From a virus, in the IMG/VR virus record IMGVR_UViG_3300036770_004139, positions 1 to 26,636 of that record: a DNA stretch of 26,636 nt, one strand, 5' to 3'. The notes beneath the pieces are model-generated. The model was not told the origin of the DNA. It saw nothing but the letters and a program-made list of their open reading frames with translations, and ran no database searches. Below, one piece after another: positions 2,227 to 19,990 of the stretch (positions are counted from its first letter, which is position 1; each line of letters starts with the position of its first letter). Both the position numbers and the translations under genes were made by a program.

Positions 2227-2877
2227 ATGAAACTTATCAGAGAAGAGATCGAATCAGTAGAATTTATCGTTGAAGAACGTAACGGTAAAAAGTCACTGTA
2301 TATTGAAGGAGTTTTTCTTCAAGGCAACATCAAGAACCGTAATGGTCGTATGTACCCTATGGAAACTCTTCGTCGTGAAGTTGCCCGTTACAATGAAAAT
2401 CATATTCAAGCAGGTAGAGCACTTGGAGAACTTGGACATCCAGATGGTCCTACAGTAAATCTTGATCGGGTTTCTCATAAAATTACTTCTCTCCGTGAAA
2501 GTGGTTCTAATTTTATCGGAAAGGCTAAAATTCTTAACACTCCGATGGGAAAAATTGCGGAGTCATTAATTTCTGAAGGTGTTAAATTGGGTGTTTCTTC
2601 TCGTGGAGTTGGATCATTAAGTTTAACTCGTGAAGGAATTAATGTTGTCGGAGAGGATTTTATGCTTGCAACGGCAGCTGATATCGTTGCTGATCCTTCT
2701 GCTCCTGATGCGTTTGTTTCGGGAATTATGGAAGGTAAAGAATGGGTATGGGATGGTGGCATTCTTCGTGAAAAATATGCCACAAAAACTTATAAGAGAA
2801 TTAATACTTTAGTTGATCAAAAAAAATTAGATGAAGAAAAACTCAATCTTTTTAATGATTTTCTGAATAACTTGTAA
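2227..2877 (+). CDS. 21: Prohead maturation protease gp21
   Basis: The serine protease that cleaves the scaffold, core proteins and gp23 during T4-like head maturation. The start is placed at the ATG at 2227, one base after the preceding stop, giving 216 residues, about the size of T4 gp21; a longer reading from 2173 would overlap the preceding gene by over 50 nt. Residues matching the herpesvirus-assemblin-like fold are visible: the catalytic His in GELGHPDGPTVNL (His71) and the catalytic Ser in LGVSSRGVGS (Ser124/125), followed by a conserved DFMLATAADIVADPSAPDAFV segment. The N-terminal part (IEGVFLQGNIKNRNGRMYP) is also typical. Located immediately before its substrate gp22. Confidence 0.95.
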   Translation: MKLIREEIESVEFIVEERNGKKSLYIEGVFLQGNIKNRNGRMYPMETLRREVARYNENHIQAGRALGELGHPDGPTVNLDRVSHKITSLRESGSNFIGKAKILNTPMGKIAESLISEGVKLGVSSRGVGSLSLTREGINVVGEDFMLATAADIVADPSAPDAFVSGIMEGKEWVWDGGILREKYATKTYKRINTLVDQKKLDEEKLNLFNDFLNNL

Positions 2878-2932: not shown

Positions 2933-4033
2933 ATGTCTCGTGGAGATTTACAAGAAATGGAAGTAGGCACTAAGCAATCCAAAACTGCCGTCAATTCTAA
3001 TGCAAAGGCAGGAGATTCGATGCCAAGAATGGCAGATCCAGGTACTCAACTTGGTGCAGTAGAGGATCTGGGTGGTCCAACCCCAGAAAATTATCGTTCC
3101 GATGACGATAGTGCAAAATTGAAAACACCTGGAGCAACTTTAAAGCAGGTTAGAGATATTGTAAATAAAGGTGCTAAATCTGCAGATCCTATGAAAGGAA
3201 TGAAGGAAGAGTCTGAGTTTGATGAAGACGAAGAACTCCTAGAAGCAAAACATAAGGAAGAAGAAGAGGACGAAGAAGAGGAAGATGATGAAGAAGAAAT
3301 GGAAGAGTCTTTTGATATTGAAGATGATGTAAATGCTCTTCTTATCGGAGAAGAACTTTCTGAAGATTTTAAAGAAAAGGCAAAAATGATTTTTGAAGCT
3401 GCTTTAAAATCAAAAGTTAATGAAGTTAGAGAATCATTAGAGGAGCAGTATGCTGCTGCTCTTTTAGAAGAAGTAGAAGAAATTAAAGAACAATTCCAAG
3501 AAAGAGTTGATTCTTACCTTGAATATGTTGCAGACGAATGGTTTGCAGAAAATGCCCTTGCAATTGAGCAAGGACTGAAAACCGAAATGACTGAGAGTTT
3601 CCTCTCAGGAATGAGGGAACTTTTTGAAGCACATTATGTATCAATCCCTGAAGATAAGTATAATGTTTTAGAGAGTATGGTAGAAAAACTTGATGACATG
3701 GAGACAAAACTCAACGAGCAGATTGAGAAAAATGTTTTCCTAAACAAGCGTCTCGCAGAGTCGGTTGCTGACGGAATCTTAGATCAAGTTTCTGAAGGGC
3801 TTGCTGCCACTCAGAAAGAAAAGCTCGCTTCACTTGCCGAAAGTGTTGAGTTTGAAAGTGAGGAAGAATATCGTGAAAAATTGGAGATGCTAAAGGAATC
3901 TTATTTCCCAACAAATAAATCTCTAAGAGCAAACACTGAAAGTCTTTCAGAGCAAGTTGATTCTTCGTCAGAAGAAATTTCTGGTACGATGGCTGCTTAT
4001 CTGAAAACTCTTCAAGCAGTTGCAAAAAATTGA
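2933..4033 (+). CDS. 22: Prohead core scaffolding protein gp22
   Basis: The main scaffold around which the gp23 shell assembles; it is degraded by gp21 during maturation. The protein is 366 residues, longer than T4 gp22 (about 269). Residues about 94-127 form a run almost entirely of E and D, and most of the remaining sequence is charged and helix-forming with heptad-like spacing, consistent with a long coiled-coil scaffold. The N-terminal 90 residues are low in hydrophobics and look disordered. The ATG at 2933 has a good Shine-Dalgarno sequence 6 nt upstream. Position between gp21 and gp23 makes the identity firm even though scaffold sequences diverge quickly. Confidence 0.9.
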   Translation: MSRGDLQEMEVGTKQSKTAVNSNAKAGDSMPRMADPGTQLGAVEDLGGPTPENYRSDDDSAKLKTPGATLKQVRDIVNKGAKSADPMKGMKEESEFDEDEELLEAKHKEEEEDEEEEDDEEEMEESFDIEDDVNALLIGEELSEDFKEKAKMIFEAALKSKVNEVRESLEEQYAAALLEEVEEIKEQFQERVDSYLEYVADEWFAENALAIEQGLKTEMTESFLSGMRELFEAHYVSIPEDKYNVLESMVEKLDDMETKLNEQIEKNVFLNKRLAESVADGILDQVSEGLAATQKEKLASLAESVEFESEEEYREKLEMLKESYFPTNKSLRANTESLSEQVDSSSEEISGTMAAYLKTLQAVAKN

Positions 4034-12321: not shown

Positions 12322-14452
12322 AGATTTGGTGGTGGAGCACAAGAAGGTTTCTACCGCCTGCTTCAACGTCCACACTCGTGTGCTAACTCTTCCTCTGTGG
12401 GAAAAGGCAAGTAATCTTGTATATGACCTTCTGGTAGGTCACGAAGTTGGGCACGCACTTTTTACTCCTGATGAAGATTGGTCACAAAATACAAAAATCC
12501 CTCCTCAGTTTGTAAATGTAGTTGAGGATGCTCGCATTGAAAAATTGATGAAACGCAAGTATATGGGGCTTGCAAAAACTTTCTTCAATGGATACAAAGA
12601 ACTGAACGATCAAGATTTCTTTCAGTTGAACGATGAAAATCTGTCCAAGTTCAATCTTGCCGATCGTGCAAATTTGTGGTTTAAAGTTGGTAACTATATT
12701 GATGTTCCTATTCAGAGGGGTAAAGAGATTGAAATCATCAACCTCATTGCTGATACTGAAACTTTTGCTGATGTCTTGATTGCTGCAGAAGAACTTTATA
12801 AGTATTGTAAGAAAGAAAAAGAACAACAGCAAAAAGTTCCCGACTTTGATTCTCACGAAACTGGAGGAGATTCTCAATCTTCTACTAATCAACCTGTAGA
12901 AACCGATGACTCCTCTCCAGAGGAAGAAGGTGAGAGTGATAACTCACAACCAAATCCCGATGAATCTTACGGTGGAACTGCTCAAGGTGATGAGGTTCAA
13001 AATACTGCTAATGATGAAGAAGAACCTGAAGTTCTCACTGCAGATTCTTTGGAGAATAAACTTCGTGACTTAATTAATCACGATGGATATGAAAACGTTT
13101 ATGTTGAGATTCCTCAAGTCAATCTTGAGACTGTGATTGGTAAAAATGCAGATGTTCATAGGGACATTGATACATCTTTTAACCATCAACAGAATAAGCA
13201 TAATGAAATGTGCGATGAACGTAACTTGGATCGTGTAGACCTTTTTAAATATGCAGATGAGGACTATAAAAAGTTTAAACTGTCGGCTCAAAAAGAAGTC
13301 AACTATTTGGTGAAGGAATTTGAATGCCGTAAGGCAGCAGATTCTTATGCTCGTGCTACCACTGCTCGCACAGGTGTTCTTGATACATCTCGTCTTCATT
13401 CCTACAAGTACTCGGAGGATTTGTTCAAGAAAGTTTCAGTGATTCCTGATGGAAAAAATCACGGTCTGATTTTTATTCTGGATTGGAGTGGATCGATGTC
13501 TCACGTTCTTCAAGATACTTGCAAACAACTTTTTAATCTTGTTTGGTTCTGTAAAAAAGTTGCGATTCCTTTTGAAGTTTATGCTTTTACAAATGAGTGG
13601 AGACGTGGTGAGTATGATTATGAAAATAAAACTCACGCACCAGCAGATCGTACTCCTCACTATGAGGCAAAAGAGGGGTTGATTCAAGTTGAAGAAACTT
13701 TTGCTTTGATGAATCTTCTTACCAGTAAAGTTTCTGGTAAAGAACTGGAACATCAAATGCTTAATGTTTGGCGTCTTTCTATTTGTTTCAGGGATTCTTA
13801 TCGTGCTCAATACACATATTCAAATCGGTTGGCTCTTTCGGGAACTCCTTTGAATGAAGCATTGATGAGTCTTCATCAGATTCTTCCTAAGTTTCAACGA
13901 GAAAATAAACTTCAAAAAGTCCAATGTATTGTGCTGACTGATGGTGAGGCAAATTATCCTCCCTATCACGTAGAAATCAAACGTGGATATGATTCTGATT
14001 CTTACATTGGAGCTCGTGGTATTAATCCAGATAAAACTTTTCTTCGGGATCGTAAACTTGGCATTACCTATAAGTTTGATTATGGGTATCATCAATTTAC
14101 TGAAGTCCTTCTTCGCAATTTGAAGGATAAGTTTCCCTCTGTAAACTTTATTGGGATTCGTGTTCTTGAAGGACGTAATGCAAATCGTTTCATTAATCTT
14201 TATCACAATCAAAGTGATAAGCAATATGAAGTGATTCAAAATGATTGGAAGAAACTGAAAAGTTTTACTATCACCAACTCTGGATATGACGCTTATTTTG
14301 GACTTTCTTCTTCTGCTTTGTCTCAAGATGCTGAGTTTGATGTTGCTGAATCTGCAACTAAATCGCAAATTAAATCTGCTTTCGTAAAGTCACTTAAAAC
14401 TAAAAAATTGAATAAAAAAGTTCTTGGGGAGTTCATTTCTCTTGTTGTCTAA
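12245..14452 (+). CDS. CobT-like protein with HExxH motif and VWA domain
   Basis: A 735-residue protein with CobT-like organisation. The N-terminal domain has HEVGH (66-70) and, about 26 residues on, NVVEDARIEKLM, the HExxH plus downstream Glu arrangement of zinc metallopeptidases. A low-complexity acidic linker rich in S, D, E, N and Q follows (about residues 205-265). The C-terminal VWA domain keeps every MIDAS metal ligand: DWSGS (Asp413, Ser415, Ser417), Thr534 in SGTPLNEAL and Asp566 in LTDGEAN. The start is set at the ATG at 12245 (MGSYETKQMPVRHEIK); an earlier ATG at 12188 gives an unlikely leader. MoxR ATPases work with VWA partners, and a CobS-like MoxR ATPase is encoded 0.9 kb downstream. 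In cells CobS/CobT insert cobalt into corrin rings; whether this phage pair does that is unknown. Confidence 0.88.
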   Translation: MGSYETKQMPVRHEIKSQLAKLLATEDLVVEHKKVSTACFNVHTRVLTLPLWEKASNLVYDLLVGHEVGHALFTPDEDWSQNTKIPPQFVNVVEDARIEKLMKRKYMGLAKTFFNGYKELNDQDFFQLNDENLSKFNLADRANLWFKVGNYIDVPIQRGKEIEIINLIADTETFADVLIAAEELYKYCKKEKEQQQKVPDFDSHETGGDSQSSTNQPVETDDSSPEEEGESDNSQPNPDESYGGTAQGDEVQNTANDEEEPEVLTADSLENKLRDLINHDGYENVYVEIPQVNLETVIGKNADVHRDIDTSFNHQQNKHNEMCDERNLDRVDLFKYADEDYKKFKLSAQKEVNYLVKEFECRKAADSYARATTARTGVLDTSRLHSYKYSEDLFKKVSVIPDGKNHGLIFILDWSGSMSHVLQDTCKQLFNLVWFCKKVAIPFEVYAFTNEWRRGEYDYENKTHAPADRTPHYEAKEGLIQVEETFALMNLLTSKVSGKELEHQMLNVWRLSICFRDSYRAQYTYSNRLALSGTPLNEALMSLHQILPKFQRENKLQKVQCIVLTDGEANYPPYHVEIKRGYDSDSYIGARGINPDKTFLRDRKLGITYKFDYGYHQFTEVLLRNLKDKFPSVNFIGIRVLEGRNANRFINLYHNQSDKQYEVIQNDWKKLKSFTITNSGYDAYFGLSSSALSQDAEFDVAESATKSQIKSAFVKSLKTKKLNKKVLGEFISLVV

Positions 14453-14455
14453 ATA
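14449..14455 (+). promoter_or_regulatory. Late promoter box CTAAATA before the DUF3293-like gene
   Basis: CTAAATA overlaps the VWA gene stop codon. T4 spacing gives a start near 14461 and a leader of about 15 nt before the ATG at 14476. It is the only late-type box I found at a gene start inside the replication half of the window, and the gene behind it has a capsid-targeting N terminus. Confidence 0.5.
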
Positions 14456-14475
14456 CCTAAAAAGTATCTGCCCAT

Positions 14476-15141
14476 ATGAAAACTTTTCAAGAATTTATGT
14501 TTGAATGCAATTCAGTTAATGAATTGTTTATAACCAGAAAATCTCCTGAAGAACAAAAAAAGAAAAAGGTTGCAGAACTCATTCGTTTGATGAAAGCAGT
14601 AGAAGATCCACTTTCTGATGTTCCCGCCAGACGTAAAAAAGTAAAAGCAAATGAAGAAGTTGAATGTATTGATGAAACTTCTCTCACTCGTGTAATGAGT
14701 AAATCAAAGAAAGGTGGAATGGCAATTATGTCTGCCCAACGTGGTGACAAATCAAAAGCAGAAAACAAAGCACGTTCGAGACAACTTGAAAGAGATGTAA
14801 GAGGTGCTGGTCTTCCTGGACCGACTAAAGTTGCTGGTAGATACACCGAAAATCCTGGAACTCCCCAAGAGAAAAAAGTAGGAGAGAAATCTCATATTAT
14901 TACTCCTGGTAAAAAAGGTAAGAGGAAGTTTAAAAAGGCAATTGAAAAACTTGGTAAAAAGTATAATCAGGATTCTGTTCTGATTCAACGTAAACCAGGT
15001 GGAAGTTCTACTCTCAAAGGAACTTCAAAGACATCTTGGCCAGGTAAAGGAAAGAATGTTAAAATAGGAAGTATGAAACCAGGTCGAACTGGTGAGTTTG
15101 ATACCAAAGTCAAAAACAAAACATTTACAGTTGAGGATTAA
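14476..15141 (+). CDS. Probable internal head protein, DUF3293-like, with capsid-targeting N terminus
   Basis: A 221-residue, very basic protein. The first ten residues, MKTFQEFMFE, closely match the capsid-targeting sequence of T4 internal proteins and Alt (MKTYQEFIAE), which sends proteins into the prohead core and is removed by gp21. Cleavage after Glu10 would be the analogous site. From about residue 90 the pattern resembles DUF3293: SRQLERDVRGAGLPGPTKVAGRY, EKSHIITPG and KKAIEKLGKKYNQDSVLI. The last 60 residues are rich in K, G, S and T. A late box lies 27 nt before the start. In T4, packaged internal proteins enter the host with the DNA and some block restriction; a similar early role here is inference from the targeting sequence. 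Confidence 0.8.
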   Translation: MKTFQEFMFECNSVNELFITRKSPEEQKKKKVAELIRLMKAVEDPLSDVPARRKKVKANEEVECIDETSLTRVMSKSKKGGMAIMSAQRGDKSKAENKARSRQLERDVRGAGLPGPTKVAGRYTENPGTPQEKKVGEKSHIITPGKKGKRKFKKAIEKLGKKYNQDSVLIQRKPGGSSTLKGTSKTSWPGKGKNVKIGSMKPGRTGEFDTKVKNKTFTVED

Positions 15142-18161: not shown

Positions 18162-19106
18162 ATGACAAGTGATTTTCTTTTTGTGGAAAAATATCGTCCT
18201 CAAGTGATTGATGACTGTATTCTTCCTGATGATACTAAAAAAACATTTAAGGAGTTCGTTGAGAAAGGAGAGATTCCAAATCTTCTTCTTGCTGGACCTC
18301 CTGGAATTGGTAAAACAACTATAGCAAAGGCATTGTGTAACGAACTGGGAGCAGATTTTTATGTCATTAACGGATCCGACGAAGGACGTTTCTTGGATAC
18401 TGTACGGAACCAAGCAAAGAACTTTGCTTCGACCGTCTCACTTACGGGATCTTCTAAACACAAAGTCATCATCATCGATGAGGCTGATAACACGGGCAAC
18501 GACGTTCAACTCCTACTACGGGCGAATATTGAGGCATTTTATAACAACTGCCGATTTATCTTTACCTGTAACTACAAAAACAAAATCATCGAACCTCTTC
18601 ATTCTCGATGTGCCGTCATTGACTTTACTATCAAAGGAAAACAAAAGGCACAACTTGCAGGAGCATTCTTTAAAAGACTCCAAACAATCTTGGATCAGGA
18701 AAAAATTGAGTATGATCCAAAAGTTCTTGCGGAGTTGGTATCAAAGCACTTCCCAGATTTCCGTAGAGTCCTCAACGAATGTCAAAGATATTCTACGGGA
18801 GGAAAAATTGACTCGGGAATTCTTGCATCTTTCTCAGACATCTCTGTAAATGAACTTCTTAAAAATCTTAAGGAAAAGAACTTCACTGAAGTACGTAAAT
18901 GGGTTGTATCCAATCTTGATAATGACAGTGGTGTTATTCTTCGTAGGGTTTATGATGCACTTTACGACTCAGTTGTTCCAGGTTCTATTCCTGCTGCTGT
19001 TCTTATTATTGCTAAGTATCAATATCAGATTGCCTTTGTTGCGGATCAAGAAATTAATCTTTTGGCGGCATTGACAGAAATTATGTGTGAGGTTGAGTTT
19101 AAATGA
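18162..19106 (+). CDS. 44: Clamp loader large subunit gp44
   Basis: The AAA+ ATPase of the gp44/62 clamp loader, which opens gp45 and closes it on primer-template DNA. The 314 residues match T4 gp44 (319). Motifs: FVEKYRPQVIDDCILP at the N terminus, Walker A GPPGIGKT (45-52), Walker B IIIDEAD (DEAD at 106-109), sensor 1 FIFTCNYKNKI and the SRC arginine-finger motif in LHSRCAVIDF, all typical of clamp loaders. Its stop overlaps the start of the methylase gene by 4 nt, so the usual 44-62 pair is separated here. Confidence 0.96.
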   Translation: MTSDFLFVEKYRPQVIDDCILPDDTKKTFKEFVEKGEIPNLLLAGPPGIGKTTIAKALCNELGADFYVINGSDEGRFLDTVRNQAKNFASTVSLTGSSKHKVIIIDEADNTGNDVQLLLRANIEAFYNNCRFIFTCNYKNKIIEPLHSRCAVIDFTIKGKQKAQLAGAFFKRLQTILDQEKIEYDPKVLAELVSKHFPDFRRVLNECQRYSTGGKIDSGILASFSDISVNELLKNLKEKNFTEVRKWVVSNLDNDSGVILRRVYDALYDSVVPGSIPAAVLIIAKYQYQIAFVADQEINLLAALTEIMCEVEFK

Positions 19107-19990
19107 GTGTAAAAACTTTTCCATTAAAAACTTGTCTTCGTTATCCTGGAGGTAAATCTAAGGCAACTAAAACTCTTGCACCTTGGTATCCTGAAAATTT
19201 TAAGGAATACCGTGAACCTTTTATTGGTGGAGGTTCTGTTGCTTTTTATACAACTCAAGCATATCCAGATGTGCCCATTTGGATTAATGACTTGTATGTT
19301 CCTCTTTATAATTTCTGGATTCAACTGCGTGATAATGGGGAAGAACTTTCTGAACGTTTAAAAGAGATTAAGACCAAAGTATCTGACTTTGGAACTCAAG
19401 ATGAGAAAGACTCTGCTCATAAAGAACTATTCAATCAAACTCGTGTGGATATTAATATTCAAGAAGGACTTGAGAGAGCAGCAAGTTTCTTTATTCTGAA
19501 TAAATGCAGCTTCTCTGGTCTTACGGAGAACAGCACATTTTCAGTTACTGCTTCTCGTTCCAATTTTTCTTTTGTTGGTATTGAAAAACTGAAAGAATAT
19601 TCAAAACTTATGAAAAATTGGAAGATTACGAATATTGATTACTCAGAGGTAATGAATGCTCCAGGAGAAGATGTCTTTGTATTTTTAGATCCACCTTATG
19701 ATATTAAAGACTTTCTTTATGGAAAGGATAGAGAGATGCACAAATCATTTGATCACGAACTTTTTGCTCAAAATGTTTATAAGTGCTCTCATAAGTTTAT
19801 GATCACTTATAATGTCAATGATAGACTTCTGGAACTATATAAAGATTATTATCTTCGTGAATGGAAGTTAAGATATTCAATGGCACATAGAGGAGAAAAG
19901 GGAACTGATGAAAATGTAAAAACAGAACTTTTAGTCACGAATTATCCAACAGAAAAAACCAATCCTTTGGAGGTTGCTCTTTATGCTTGA
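19103..19990 (+). CDS. dam: DNA adenine N6-methyltransferase, Dam/D12 class
   Basis: A SAM-dependent adenine methylase. 295 residues, with the D12-class order: motif X LRYPGGKSKATKTLAPW (about 11-27), motif I REPFIGGGSVAFY (about 37-49) for SAM binding, a CSFSGLTENSTFSV middle segment and the catalytic motif IV VFLDPPYDI. The class includes Dam (GATC) and type II restriction methylases; recognition site cannot be read from the motifs. No partner nuclease is next to it, so it is an orphan methylase. It lies between the two clamp-loader subunit genes with overlaps of 4 and 8 nt, and its last codons contain the GGAGG ribosome site for gp62. Probable roles are protection from host restriction or marking of phage DNA. 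Confidence 0.93.
   Translation: MSVKTFPLKTCLRYPGGKSKATKTLAPWYPENFKEYREPFIGGGSVAFYTTQAYPDVPIWINDLYVPLYNFWIQLRDNGEELSERLKEIKTKVSDFGTQDEKDSAHKELFNQTRVDINIQEGLERAASFFILNKCSFSGLTENSTFSVTASRSNFSFVGIEKLKEYSKLMKNWKITNIDYSEVMNAPGEDVFVFLDPPYDIKDFLYGKDREMHKSFDHELFAQNVYKCSHKFMITYNVNDRLLELYKDYYLREWKLRYSMAHRGEKGTDENVKTELLVTNYPTEKTNPLEVALYA

Follow-up and report, generated by a model that had tools for sequence, protein, structure and literature searches.

Gene organization and late promoter

The window analyzed here, i.e. the whole stretch of 26,636 bases, is a metagenomic virus fragment of a T4-like cyanophage, and its nearest sequenced relatives are the Synechococcus phages SynMITS9220M01 and S-SM2. It carries gp21 and gp22, together with gp20 portal and gp23 capsid genes that were assigned by position and sequence, followed by uvsW, gp55, gp47/46, a CobT-like gene, a CobS-like gene and replication genes, and a phage adenine methylase is encoded at 19103-19990. 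The gp21 prohead protease (Peptidase_S77, E=7e-35; 2227..2877, plus strand) is the presumed processing enzyme for the protein described below, and the gp22-type scaffold or core protein (PF25623 T4_CASP, E=3e-76; 2933..4033, plus strand) is, by analogy with T4, the presumed partner of its targeting tag. The open reading frame of this study (14476-15141, plus strand; ATG at 14476, stop codon ending at 15141) encodes 221 amino acids. It is indeed located between the CobT-like and the CobS-like gene, where a sequence-only reading of this DNA had placed it, and the computed pI of 10.1, with 53 Lys and Arg versus 27 Asp and Glu residues, agrees with the highly basic protein noted in that reading.

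A late-promoter box TAAATA (14450..14455, plus strand, in the context GTCTAAATACC) overlaps the stop codon of the CobT-like gene and is positioned 26 nt before the ATG, and the gene thus has the late box of its own that had been claimed for it. In the window, TAAATA is found 15-46 nt upstream of 6 of the 7 late or structural genes and of 0 of the 21 others (Fisher p=1.9e-5, with gene classes according to our own classification). For comparison, relatives were collected in two IMG/VR scans, with the N-terminus omitted from the bait of the second, resulting in 75 unique entries, 73 of them full length. Of the 75 entries, 67 have the box no more than 50 nt upstream, most commonly at a spacing of 26 nt, which supports the view that the gene is expressed late.

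A probable T4-type targeting sequence at the N-terminus

The N-terminus of the encoded protein, MKTFQEFMFECNSV, begins with the decapeptide MKTFQEFMFE (residues 1-10, 14476..14505, plus strand), behind which, after E10, a gp21 cut is predicted. The T4 internal proteins IPII and IPIII start with ATGAAAACATATCAAGAATTTATTGCCGAA, i.e. with MKTYQEFIAE. Both decapeptides have F/Y at position 4, F at position 7 and E at position 10, the key positions, and this agreement bears out the proposed closeness to the T4 targeting sequence. Mutants of T4 IPIII have assigned positions 4 and 7 to targeting and positions 8 and 10 to processing (PMC9026906). Among the 73 full-length relatives, whose start codons were picked with the motif in mind but are nearly always simply the first in-frame ATG, F/Y at position 4 is combined with F at position 7 in 72, and 65 of these 72 have E10. 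Homologues devoid of the motif, which had been named as evidence against a head protein, are practically absent from this set, and even in the sole exception (L043/L124) a KSFKQFMLE sequence is found internal to the protein. The substitution pattern points in the same direction: pN/pS is 0 at codon 7, where synonymous changes occur but no amino-acid change, 0.11-0.13 at codons 4 and 10, and 1.15 at the unconstrained codon 9, and the constrained codons agree with the T4 IPIII genetics.

When the tag is written as a degenerate DNA pattern, the window contains a single match, whereas none of 100 dinucleotide shuffles thereof contains any. In 20 cyanophage records the pattern has 30 matches, as compared to 0 for a reversed-pattern control, and in T4, used as control, it picks out IPII and IPIII. 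The suggested search for further copies of the decapeptide in this genome covered the 26.6-kb window, where there is one copy, that of its own gene. Judged from these sequence comparisons, the N-terminus has the properties of a T4-type capsid-targeting sequence. As a side observation, the 54-residue T4 protein gp61.1 (gene 61.1, L196:967-1131), to which no function is assigned, begins with MKTFKEFIKE and is a good match to the T4 targeting sequence.

A SAM-lyase domain as payload

The Pfam profile PF23780 (S-AdoMet_lyase) matches residues 84-207 with E=3e-14 and 53.5 bits, the cut-off being 28 bits, and the same profile matches all 38 relatives that were scanned as well as gp6 of the cyanophage S-CREM2. 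The sequence-only reading had seen a resemblance to DUF3293 (PF11697) in this region. The position of that resemblance is real (residues 93-168, E=0.018), but its 16.1 bits remain below the curated cut-off of 25, and PF23780 fits better, so that the assignment to DUF3293 was rejected in favor of the SAM-lyase domain. Weak DUF3293 matches over the SAM-lyase domain at E<=0.1 were also obtained for 33 of the 38 relatives (best E=8e-4), hinting that DUF3293 may be a distant relative of the SAM lyases. NCBIfam and PADLOC searches of the protein gave no match. Sequence searches of the PDB, with the single protein or with a profile, found no SAM lyase, and only the fold comparison did so.

For this comparison, an AlphaFold model of modest confidence (pLDDT 56) was built from 38 relatives, and in a Foldseek search with this model the T3 SAM lyase chains ranked first among PDB entries (E=0.005). 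Two Z scores of 9.2 and 9.0, each for an overlap of about 130 residues, were obtained with T3 SAM lyase and one of 6.6 with Svi3-3, the latter barely exceeding the values of unrelated ferredoxin-like folds. The model thus matches the PII-like alpha-beta fold of T3 SAM lyase and Svi3-3, while an hhalign alignment to T3 SAM lyase is weak (E=0.0035). In Svi3-3, SAM is contacted by G56, Y58, E69, Q104 and E105 (PMC7877911). The counterparts are G55xY57, E68-K-T and Q94-D95 in T3 SAM lyase, and G121, Y123, E137 (within E137-K-S), Q165 and D166 in the protein described here, which thereby matches the active-site pattern GxY...E...Q(D/E). E137 was chosen over E132 because E137 is invariant; the hhalign alignment to T3 is compatible with either residue. 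Across relatives that are about 50-60% identical, the residues that would contact SAM according to Svi3-3 are invariant or nearly so. By profile and predicted fold, the payload is a SAM-lyase domain (residues 68-221, 14677..15138, plus strand), with the five residues as candidate active site, and not a DUF3293 domain of unknown function.

Linker and predicted processing sites

Between tag and domain, there is a variable linker (residues 11-67, 14506..14676, plus strand) that contains the module NELFITRKSPEEQKKKKVAELIRLMK and ends in a second L/I-x-E site, I65-D66-E67, followed by T68. Among relatives, this linker ranges from none to nearly 300 residues, and the tag is retained while everything between tag and domain changes. 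Modules such as GMT(M/L)KDFKANR or ELFITRKSPE are shared among relatives and appear shuffled, usually being bounded by L/I-x-E (examples of relatives with such modules are L009:2970-4292, L011:4314-5495, L022:3338-4642 and L081:2523-3284). T4 gp21 cuts at L/I-x-E. The first of the predicted cuts, behind E10, does not conform to this rule, its P3 residue being M8 (M-F-E), and in most relatives position 8 is occupied by V, M, I or L. By contrast, 70 of 74 relatives have the second site, I/L-x-E ahead of (T/S)SL at the domain start, with the canonical I or L as its P3 residue, and long linker versions contain further L/I-x-E sites between the modules. This arrangement suggests that gp21 may free the enzyme from its linker.

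Virion proteins of related cyanophages

The homologue gp6 of S-CREM2 is about 52% identical over residues 59-221, and it starts with MKDFDSFLEE, which is a diverged tag. It was detected with 19 unique peptides in CsCl-purified virions by authors who proposed an anti-restriction role for it and who left carry-over of virion enzymes possible (PMC10665884). When the annotated genes of S-CREM2 were translated, aromatic residues at positions 4 and 7 combined with E10 were found in 4 of 219 proteins, namely gp6, the kinase gp14, gp136 and the NMNAT-like gp154, and all four are on the virion list of 52 proteins (p=0.003; this test uses only positions known from T4 but is still partly shaped by the data and not fully independent). 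A narrow pattern, M[KR][TS][FY], had matched no S-CREM2 protein and was widened once the N-termini had been seen, and the p=6e-4 thereby obtained is post hoc. In S-SCSM1, one of two matches of the tag pattern is the exact start of the NMNAT gp91, a virion protein according to mass spectrometry (PMC9602691). In case of S-SZBM1, one of three tag-like proteins is in the virion, an NMNAT with the one-residue-shorter variant MRFRQFIIEA, and the other two, gp191 and gp192, were not detected.

Further observations concern other proteins with such N-termini. Proteins of the NMNAT/cytidylyltransferase family in T4-like cyanophages share the N-terminal pattern MK(S/N)FxxFLxEA, and most of their genes are preceded by TAAATA at a distance of 26-29 nt (L173:820-2049, L175:753-1979, L179:248-1528, L181:306 and L185:278, as well as S-CREM2 gp154 at L085:26608-27468). 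Others have found members of this family in virions of S-SCSM1, S-SZBM1 and S-CREM2, and the tagged family possibly represents an injected NAD-related enzyme. In the L082:7704-10546 region of S-CREM2, gp12 is a virion protein that is annotated as Cas9/Csn1, has no Pfam match and contains a tag-like RFASFMAEA near residue 20, behind a possible wrong start, and gp13 starts with MKDLHSFLTE. Small, mostly basic tagged proteins, some with a late box (L177:293, L184:284, L180:251, L178:283, L183 on the minus strand, L174:716, L176:816), are candidates for further head cargo.

Proposed mechanism and alternatives

With the conserved late box, the conserved tag, and a homologue that others found in purified virions, packaging into the head is well supported, and a late-made head protein, as had been proposed for this locus, is probable. 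Its likening to T4 IPI suits the packaging and fails for the payload, as the SAM-lyase domain shifts the expected action from that of an IPI-like inhibitor protein to that of a cofactor-removing enzyme. SAM is the methyl donor required by several bacterial antiviral systems and the cofactor of type I restriction enzymes and BREX. We regard it as likely that the gene encodes a late-made, head-packaged and probably gp21-trimmed SAM lyase that is delivered together with the DNA to blunt SAM-dependent restriction or BREX. The late-promoter position, the tag conservation, the family, fold and active site of the SAM lyase, and the virion homologue are supported by data; the docking into the core, the cleavage by gp21, the exit from the head, the breakdown of SAM and a benefit against host defences are steps that we infer.

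Such a mechanism would start from a late protein in which a T4-type targeting decapeptide is followed by a basic linker of variable sequence and then by a SAM-lyase domain, and the decapeptide would dock this three-part protein into the prohead core. Cuts by the gp21 protease would follow, probably behind E10 as well as at IDE/TSL, the conserved second site, and the mature head would retain the basic SAM lyase amid its DNA. During infection, the enzyme would exit with the DNA into the host and split host SAM into methylthioadenosine and homoserine lactone, and SAM-dependent restriction or BREX could be weakened before any phage gene is expressed. The SAM lyase of T3 blocks BREX by SAM removal (PMC11842806) and also inhibits SAM synthase (PMC8406200). 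A late lyase that is carried in the head would moreover spare the phage's own adenine methylase from an early-made lyase.

What alternatives exist for this mechanism? A late SAM lyase could in principle act only in the producing cell, where it would stop late methylation or shift host metabolism, with the virion signal resulting from carry-over and the N-terminus serving another role. The carry-over was raised by the S-CREM2 authors themselves, the gene is located among replication genes in the window, and in S-CREM2, S-H34 and S-N03 its homologue is the neighbour of a phage adenine methylase gene. We nevertheless consider this explanation unlikely, as the conservation of the tag concerns just those positions that are required in T4 and extends across wholly different linkers, as the tag also starts the unrelated NMNAT of S-SCSM1 virions, and as a removal of SAM only late in infection would bring little anti-restriction benefit.

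Slightly less probable still is an internal head protein that has retained a SAM-lyase fold without activity and that condenses DNA or fills the core. The strongly basic character (pI 10.1-10.6), which resembles that of T4 internal proteins, and the large variable basic linkers would suit such a role, whereas the near invariance of the SAM-contacting residues and a PF23780 score well above the curated cut-off argue against a loss of activity. It is also conceivable, albeit very improbable, that the packaged enzyme is a SAM-AMP lyase, with a SAM conjugate as substrate, that silences CorA-type III CRISPR signalling. SAM-AMP lyases have the same fold and catalytic Glu, a phage example with an N-terminal extension exists (PMC12255297), and structures of the C. 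botulinum SAM-AMP lyase are among the lower-ranking matches of our fold search, but T3 SAM lyase ranks far above SAM-AMP lyase for the model. Packaging and delivery of an active SAM lyase thus is our preferred explanation.

Relation to known systems

That a cyanophage virion can contain a SAM hydrolase was already known from S-CREM2. New, judging from the open-access literature, are the link to a T4-type tag and the conservation of its functional positions, the conserved second LxE site, the modular linker, and the fact that the tag is common to a virion NMNAT. In the open-access papers covered, no cyanophage paper that describes a capsid targeting sequence was found, and the sole co-occurrence of the terms was in a T4 review. 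Metabolic enzymes have been detected in several T4-like cyanophage virion proteomes, and the authors left undecided whether such enzymes are packaged or contaminate the preparations (PMC10665884, PMC9602691). An address tag that is conserved, and for which the genetics are known from T4, offers a testable answer to this question, and it would allow probable injected proteins to be listed on the basis of sequence in a phage group that ranks among the most abundant. As a more tentative generalization, for which the chances may be a little below even, T4-like cyanophages could use one decapeptide address to load metabolic enzymes (a SAM lyase, an NMNAT-type nucleotidyltransferase and a kinase) into the head for an immediate attack on the SAM and NAD chemistry of the host, with some precursors being cut by gp21 at serial L/I-x-E sites. 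If the preferred explanation is true, counter-defence by SAM lyases moves from the first protein made after entry, as in T3, to a protein that is already there when the DNA arrives.

S-CREM2 gp6 (PMC10665884) shares the homologous domain, the late box and the F4/F7 N-terminus, whereas its tag MKDFDSFLEE, its short linker, its C-terminal extension of about 240 residues and its position beside a Dam methylase differ; the targeting sequence was not recognised by its authors. With T4 IPI, IPII and IPIII, the protein has in common the N-terminal targeting decapeptide, late expression, basic character and a variable payload. T4 IPI* enters the host by injection and acts against a restriction enzyme. 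In contrast to these small inhibitors, the payload described here is a SAM-lyase domain of catalytic type, and the tag is the sole sequence relation. T3 SAM lyase (gene 0.3) is similar in its predicted fold, in the GxY...EK(S/T)...QD site and in the use of SAM depletion as counter-defence, but the T3 enzyme is the first protein made after entry and has no tag, whereas the enzyme encoded in the window would be late and carried in the head. The Svi3-3 and Orf1 SAM lyases from environmental phages have the PII-like alpha-beta fold and the catalytic residues in common with it, although the sequence similarity is barely detectable and head targeting has not been reported for them.
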